DNA from: an uncultured Pseudomonadales bacterium
GTDB taxonomy: Bacteria > Pseudomonadota > Gammaproteobacteria > Pseudomonadales > IMCC2047
DNA length: 6,865 bases
NCBI GenBank assembly: GCA_947258895.1
Contig: CAMYKE010000086.1
Coordinates: 1 to 6,865 of the forward strand
Reading direction: 5' to 3'
The notes under the pieces were generated by a model that was given only the letters and a program-made list of their open reading frames with translations, was not told where the DNA came from and ran no database searches. Made by a program: the position numbers and the translations under genes. This document shows positions 5,306 through 6,865 of the stretch, piece after piece (the stretch's first letter is position 1; each line of letters starts with the position of its first letter).

Positions 5306-6223
5306 CTACTGCTCAATAAAGTCCTGCAGGAGGAATTCGATCAGCGCTTTCTGGGCGTGCAAACGGTTTTCGGCTTCGTCCCATACCACGCTGCGCGGAT
5401 CATCCAGCAGGGCCGAACTCACCTCCTCACCGCGGTGAGCGGGCAGGCAATGCATAAATAACGCGTCCGGAGCCGCGAGGTCCATGAGTTTCTGGTTGAC
5501 CTGGTACCCCGCAAATTGTTGCTCGCGTGTGGCCTGCTCATCTTCCTGGCCCATCGATGCCCAGACATCCGTCACCACCAGCTGGCTTCCGATAACCGCC
5601 TGGGCGGGATCCCTGAACAGGGTGACCCGGCCTTTGTTTTCTTCCAGTAATCGTGTCAGGGGCTCGTAGCCTTCCGGGCATGCGATGTGCAGATTGAAGT
5701 CCAGTAACTTCGCCGCGTTGATGTAGGAGTTGCACATGTTGTTGCCATCGCCAACCCAGGTAACGGTCTTGCCCCTGATTGCGCCTCGGTGTTCGTGGAA
5801 TGTCTGCATGTCAGCGAGTAGCTGGCAGGGATGAAATTCATCGGTCAGGGCGTTAATCACGGGCACCCTGGAATATCTGGCGAAGCGCTCAATCTTGCTG
5901 TGTTCAAAGGTTCGGATCATAATAATATCGACCATCCGCGACAAGACCCGCGCGCTGTCTTCTATGGGCTCGCCGCGGCCAAGCTGGGTATCGCGTGGTG
6001 ACAGAAACAGCGCATGGCCGCCCAGTTGCGCCATGCCGGCCTCAAAAGACACGCGTGTCCGGGTTGAGGATTTCTCAAATACCATTGCCATCACGCGCCC
6101 CGGCAGGGAGGCGTGGCTAGTGCCGCTCGCTTGCAGATGCTTGAGTTCTATCGCCCGTTGAATCAGCTGCGCAATTTCAGCCTGGCTGAGATCGCTTAGG
6201 GAGAGGAAATTCCTGCCACTCAT
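5306..6223 (-). CDS. argF: Ornithine carbamoyltransferase module, with its own start site
   Basis: A complete 305-residue ornithine carbamoyltransferase, which joins carbamoyl phosphate and ornithine to give citrulline in the cytoplasm. Counted from its Met: the carbamoyl-phosphate loop STRTR (53-57), the family segment [15 protein letters not shown] (79-93), FHPCQ (130-134), the ornithine loop DVWASMGQ (219-226) and [12 protein letters not shown] (258-269, with the C259 typical of the family). Its length is near that of other bacterial ArgF proteins of about 300-335 residues, and no key residue is missing. ATG at 6223 is preceded by GGGAG (6230-6234) with a 6-nt spacer, so it can be translated independently, although it also continues the argD frame. 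ATG at 6223 is the likely start if a separate enzyme is made. Catalytic ArgF is normally a trimer, so a fusion would have to accommodate that. No clear terminator follows the stop. Confidence 0.88.
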
Positions 6224-6865
6224 ATCGGGCTCCCGGTCCCGCAACCGGGTCAGCCGGGGGCGTGGCTGTGCGCGCCGCTGCTGACCACGGTCATCCCCTG
6301 CATAGACCTTGATCAACTTGACAAGGGACCGTACTGCCAGTTCCGCCTCGTCATCCTTGAGGATCAGCGGCGGCAGCAGCCGGATGACATTTTCAGCGGT
6401 AACGTTGATTAGCATGCCCTTCGCCATTGCCAGCATCACCAACTCGCTGCAGGGCTCATCCAGTTCGATCCCGAACATCATTCCCGCACCCCGGACTTCC
6501 CTGACATAGTTGGCAAACTTCAATTGTTCACGTAACTCGTCCAGCATCCGGCTCCCCAACTCTGCGGCACGCTCGGCGAACCGGTGCTCGACAATGGTGG
6601 AAACGGTAGCGATGGCAGCCGCGCAGGCCAGTGGGTTGCCTCCGAAGGTCGAGCCGTGCGAGCCCGGTTTGAATACAGAAGCGGCTCTCCCGCTGCTCAG
6701 ACAGGCACCGATCGGCACGCCATTGGCCAGGCCTTTTGCTGTGGTCACCACATCCGGCACGATCCCGGTGCGTTGATAGGAAAAAAATGTGCCGGTGCGG
6801 CCATTGCCCGACTGTACTTCATCCAGCATTAGCAACCAGTCATGCTCGTCGCAAATCGCCCTGAG
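5306..6865 (-). CDS. argD-argF: In-frame ArgD-ArgF fusion: acetylornithine aminotransferase (5' cut by window edge) joined to ornithine carbamoyltransferase
   Basis: One uninterrupted frame runs from the right edge to the stop at 5306-5308 (519 residues visible). Visible residues 1-189 are the C-terminal half of a class III PLP aminotransferase: [15 protein letters not shown] with the PLP-nitrogen Asp (D15), [14 protein letters not shown] with the Schiff-base Lys (K44), [11 protein letters not shown], and a family-typical end [17 protein letters not shown]...[10 protein letters not shown]. ArgD converts N-acetylglutamate semialdehyde to N-acetylornithine. About 25 Arg- and Pro-rich residues follow (190-214), then a full ArgF from Met215. 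No stop codon separates the two, although they are normally separate adjacent genes. The linker resembles translated intergenic sequence, and adding one G at the GGGG run (6295-6298) would end ArgD immediately with TGA, so a one-base deletion or sequence error is possible. Both enzymes belong to the same pathway, two steps apart, with deacetylation or acetyl transfer to give ornithine in between. I am sure of the frame but not that a fused protein is made. Confidence 0.8.
6228..6255 (-). promoter_or_regulatory. Hairpin covering the argF ribosome site at the argD-argF junction
   Basis: CCCGGT (6232-6237) and ACCGGG (6244-6249) pair perfectly around a 6-nt loop. GGCT/AGCC (6228-6231 and 6252-6255) can extend the stem past a 2-nt bulge. 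On the mRNA (minus strand) the argF Shine-Dalgarno GGGAG (6230-6234) lies inside the 3' arm of this stem. Such a fold could keep the site closed until ribosomes coming from argD open it, which would couple the two genes translationally. The GC-rich surroundings make chance pairing possible. Confidence 0.4.

Follow-up and report, generated by a model that had tools for sequence, protein, structure and literature searches.

Ornithine carbamoyltransferase (ArgF) and acetylornithine aminotransferase (ArgD) are read as one polypeptide at the end of a 6,865-nucleotide stretch of DNA from an uncultured Pseudomonadales bacterium, and the question that this locus raises is whether the joined frame describes a genuine bifunctional enzyme or two ordinary genes that have lost the stop between them. 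In what follows "the window" means this whole stretch of 6,865 nucleotides. The minus strand from 5306 to 6865 is a single open frame with no stop until the ArgF terminator, which confirms the report of the initial annotation that the ArgD frame enters ArgF without interruption. To address the question we combined profile searches, comparison of the junction with that of relatives and searches for fused chains in other genomes, proteins and structures.

Two enzyme parts in one reading frame

The open frame leaves the window at its edge on the ArgD side and has a visible length of 519 aa, in which Pfam recognizes Aminotran_3 at residues 1-184, OTCace_N at 218-358 and OTCace at 365-511. The N-terminal half of ArgD falls outside the window. 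The half that is present passes the test for class-III aminotransferases, scoring 189.1 bits against PF00202 (cut-off 30.5), and reaches 200.6 bits against the whole-ArgD model TIGR00707, whose curated cut-off of 410.05 bits has to be read with only the C-terminal half available in the window. ArgF carries both OTC domains and exceeds the NCBIfam cut-offs of TIGR00658 (394 versus 280.85 bits) and NF001986 (468.3 versus 306 bits), which places it within the family. Among the listed proteins the closest to the window ArgD is P0121, at 85% identity, and the ArgF protein P0001 is 90% identical to the window ArgF and likewise 305 aa long. The motif TTAKGLAN is kept in the visible half of ArgD, as are SSTRTR and HCLPAHRGE in ArgF; we take these to be the motifs expected of active ArgD and ArgF enzymes, and because they are kept both parts look able to work. 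Additionally, argF retains its own ATG and an upstream GGGAG, as had been noted before, and both are seen at the positions given in Table 1.

Table 1. Features of the argD-argF region of the window
Feature	Position	Strand	Basis
argF (ornithine carbamoyltransferase), complete, 305 aa	5306..6223	-	ATG at 6221-6223; Pfam and NCBIfam
Stretch unlike relatives, at the place expected for tail end, stop and spacer	6224..6259	-	Residue-shuffle test
GGGAG, putative argF ribosome-binding site	6230..6234	-	Sequence; function inferred
Five-G run on the plus strand (C on the coding strand), possible one-base error or indel site	6256..6260	.	Sequence
ArgD C-terminal tail, in-frame match to relatives	6260..6298	-	Tail alignment; DNA of L015 and G003
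ArgD (acetylornithine aminotransferase), C-terminal half	6299..6865	-	Visible residues 1-189; Aminotran_3 profile positions 216-402 of 403

The remaining genes in the window (CbiM-like, Ysc84, NfeD, Band_7, HDOD and rhomboid) are without internal stops, and these intact frames count slightly against a sequence full of errors throughout. The rhomboid gene, which extends past the window edge, contains at 342-392 a perfect 24-base tandem repeat of 2.1 copies that doubles AAAFSQVL and may be either real or made by the assembly.

The ArgD tail and the stretch ahead of argF

An Arg/Asp-rich C-terminal tail of the form DDRxxQRRxxxRxxSDRR is present in 58 of the 120 nearest ArgD proteins listed. Relatives that bear it include P0121-P0176 as well as L015 (Gammaproteobacteria bacterium F7, located in genome G001) and G003, the two nearest DNA relatives. 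The window matches this tail in frame from GDDR through QRRAQPR (6260-6298), and the R of QPR is found in all 37 distinct tails. When tail positions 0-12 are considered, 106 of 20000 residue shuffles reach the score of the real order; for positions 4-12 the real order is equalled by 5458 of 20000 residue shuffles and by 2001 of 20000 base shuffles. Because positions 4-12 alone resemble shuffles, the tail match is carried by AQPR.

This tail bears directly on the G run at 6295-6298, where the initial annotation had placed a missing base and the true end of ArgD. The arithmetic behind that proposal is sound, as one added G yields an immediate TGA, 67 nt ahead of argF by count. However, the DNA of L015 and G003 aligns across 6295-6298 without an indel and keeps the same frame with no added base, the residues downstream fit the tail of the relatives, and the extra G would delete that conserved tail. 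The nearest listed ArgD proteins, moreover, are mostly 409-419 aa in length with the tail included. Since the conserved tail of the relatives continues in frame past the run, 6295-6298 is, on this alignment, true coding sequence, and we regard a G dropped here as very improbable and rejected it. The related view that the Arg/Pro/Gln-rich junction is translated spacer does not hold for 6260-6298, which is in-frame conserved ArgD tail, and is left with 6224-6259, where likeness to the relatives is absent.

As counted, 45 nt separate the A of QRRA from the argF ATG in the window, against 58 nt in G003 and 67 nt in L015, and argF is in step with argD in the window while it is one base out of step in both relatives. 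The offset thus differs from that of both relatives; the net change in length is therefore indivisible by three, and it lies in the part expected to hold the tail end, stop and spacer. If an indel is involved at all it would be located in 6224-6260, and the five-G run at 6256-6260 is a possible site of such an error or indel. With one base removed from this run ArgD would end in AQPRPG followed by a stop, 26 nt ahead of argF by count. Against the tail of the relatives the version with one base fewer scores 12.53 and the frame as written 0.61; shortening reduces the number of positions scored, so these two values are not comparable.

From the A of QRRA up to the argF ATG the G+C content is 77%, versus 57-59% in argD and argF. 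Once a stop is gone, the probability that a 16-codon stretch is free of further stops is 0.85 at the composition of the junction and 0.53 at that of the window; an open junction alone is therefore no evidence of selection for fusion. When 118 blocks, each of 16 codons, are ranked by codon score the junction comes last; this is a weak test because the true tail scores low as well (-0.176 in its own frame and 0.282 in a wrong frame), and it argues weakly against a long-standing coding linker.

Junctions in relatives and apparent fusions

Relatives share with the window the gene order, orthologous proteins and the ArgD tail to QRRA, but their ArgD and ArgF are separate. In G003 ArgD is closed by a stop 7 nt before argF and in L015 by a stop 19 nt before argF, unlike the window, which has none. 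P0121 (ArgD, 413 aa) and P0001 are separate proteins whose genes are probably neighbours, since both list a longest contig of 25,801; pairing by equal longest contig joined 24 of 25 in hand-picked lists, a figure that serves for illustration and should not be taken as a count. Three genomes were compared in the family of G001, and the contig of one of them (G002) ends inside the ArgD tail. An alignment of the junction with relatives had been suggested as a check, and it places a stop between the genes with no extra G at 6295-6298. A no-stop junction common to the close relatives was thus not found among G003, L015 and the separate P0121 and P0001.

Of 150 distinct adjacent argD/argF pairs, 88 share one frame that a stop interrupts between the genes, 61 are in different frames and one, in genome G585, is open. 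The search procedure favours matches that are full-length and same-frame, which inflates the same-frame share, and at 45 further matching loci no argD-argF pair was obtained. The same-frame pairs (n = 89) comprise 68 with exactly one in-frame stop, 20 with more and one with none, and as a single stop separates the genes in so many of them the open state is one mutation away. The intergenic gap has a median of 18 nt (103 pairs). Read-through searches gave a similar picture in the best matches listed, which overlap each other and the 150 pairs: a stop is contained in all 48 listed full-length same-frame matches from 369 genomes of the class and in 58 of 59 from 390 genomes of the order.

The open pair in G585 (L183, G585:C4:559541-561022), a genome of the same order, is a 706-aa frame spanning ArgD and ArgF, and like the window it has both enzymes in one stop-free frame. 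The three loci most like it (L200, L201 and L202) have argD and argF separate, and in alignment with each of them G585 has one base missing within the first codons of argF. The best account of its open frame is a frameshift that arose either in the cell or during assembly, and we dropped it as support for an independent fusion. It differs from the window in that the base is missing within argF and that there is no such ArgD tail, while the argF start of the window is intact. G585 illustrates the ease with which one base creates a fusion-like reading. With this single pair an apparent frameshift, fusion in several independent lineages was not found among the 150 distinct pairs.

Other candidates were rejected as fusions, six because ArgD lies in another frame (L111 in G028, L146 in G266, L147 in G291, L148 in G330, L149 in G208 and L151 in G136) and two because a stop stands between argD and argF (L145 in G202 and L150 in G154). 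In L111, L146, L147 and L148 the argF frame is open for 366-490 codons upstream, crossing argD in the wrong frame. A long open frame upstream of argF is a trap for fusion screens that rely on its length; as argD is out of frame or a stop is present in such loci, open-frame length is no strict measure of fusion, and no count given here rests on it. P0241 (387 aa), ranked second in the junction search, was set aside as an ArgF with an internal duplication. This internal repeat is possibly an assembly fault. A search of viral contigs gave one match, confined to ArgF.

No protein longer than 444 aa occurs among the 338 distinct proteins listed (the best 120 per query, from the 8000 top word-sharing candidates); these lists of the best 120 each do not hold the G585 chain either, so fused proteins may be on record. 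Among 271 matched sequences with solved structures, the top 60 include no joined ArgD-ArgF chain, and no ArgD-ArgF fusion turned up in the portions of the literature searched.

Origin and meaning of the open frame

Against this background of separate genes the open frame is, as judged by these comparisons, a derived singleton. Most probably it represents ordinary neighbouring argD and argF genes whose stop has been lost in this sequence, by mutation or by error, and not an established double enzyme. The choice posed by the initial annotation, between a stop lost recently and a single-base error that joins two normal genes, still stands in this form, and in the relatives the genes are indeed divided by a stop. 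The starting state would have been that of the relatives, in which an ArgD with a short Arg/Asp-rich tail is followed by argF as a separate gene. A small indel or a substitution would then have removed the tail end and stop within the final 36 nt ahead of argF, a site that we infer from an ancestral junction reconstructed with relatives about 70-75% alike in protein, and the ArgD frame would have come to run on into ArgF. Free ArgF would probably still be made from its own ATG, since argF keeps its start and a possible ribosome-binding site. If the change took place in the cell, ribosomes completing argD would go on to produce, in addition, an ArgD-ArgF chain joined by a short basic linker.

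A stop lost by mutation in the cell, with a selected bifunctional enzyme counted among the outcomes, has about an even chance. That the assembly instead carries a surplus base or lacks one at 6224-6260, and that the organism has separate genes, is somewhat short of an even chance. One base fewer in the five-G run would close ArgD at a distance from argF that can be set beside the median gap of 18 nt, and the apparent fusion in G585 is likewise accompanied by a missing base, there inside argF. However, the version with one base fewer is without the DRR motif and does not restore an ordinary tail, deleting one base does not restore the argD/argF offset of G003 and L015, and the remaining frames of the window are intact. 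A very young real fusion, in which the lineage-specific basic ArgD tail now links ArgD to ArgF in a functional chain produced beside free ArgF from the internal start, is a possibility that we entertain only tentatively.

A selected enzyme that tethers two steps of the pathway is improbable. Both parts retain the motifs of active enzymes, with roles that we take from general knowledge, and fusions of arginine enzymes do exist. For example, one report describes argH(A) of marine gammaproteobacteria, in which argininosuccinase is fused to an acetyltransferase domain, as occurring in many species and complementing an argA mutant (PMC1382215). It resembles the window frame in joining two enzymes of arginine biosynthesis but differs in the enzymes involved, in its wide spread among species and in the complementation demonstrated for it (PMC1382215). 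An ArgD-ArgF arrangement, in contrast, is absent from the relatives except for the apparent frameshift in G585, the junction ranks last among the 118 blocks in codon score (the weak test in which the true tail is low too), and ArgF retains its own start.

The preferred reading of ordinary neighbours with a lost stop leaves room for the change to be real. If it is, this organism would have an ArgD-ArgF chain of a sort not met in the portions of the literature searched, and the locus would exemplify the birth of a fusion by stop loss, with the downstream enzyme preserved by an internal start. Additionally, since 68 of the 89 pairs that share a frame have a single stop codon between the genes, annotated argD-argF fusions merit a look at the reads.
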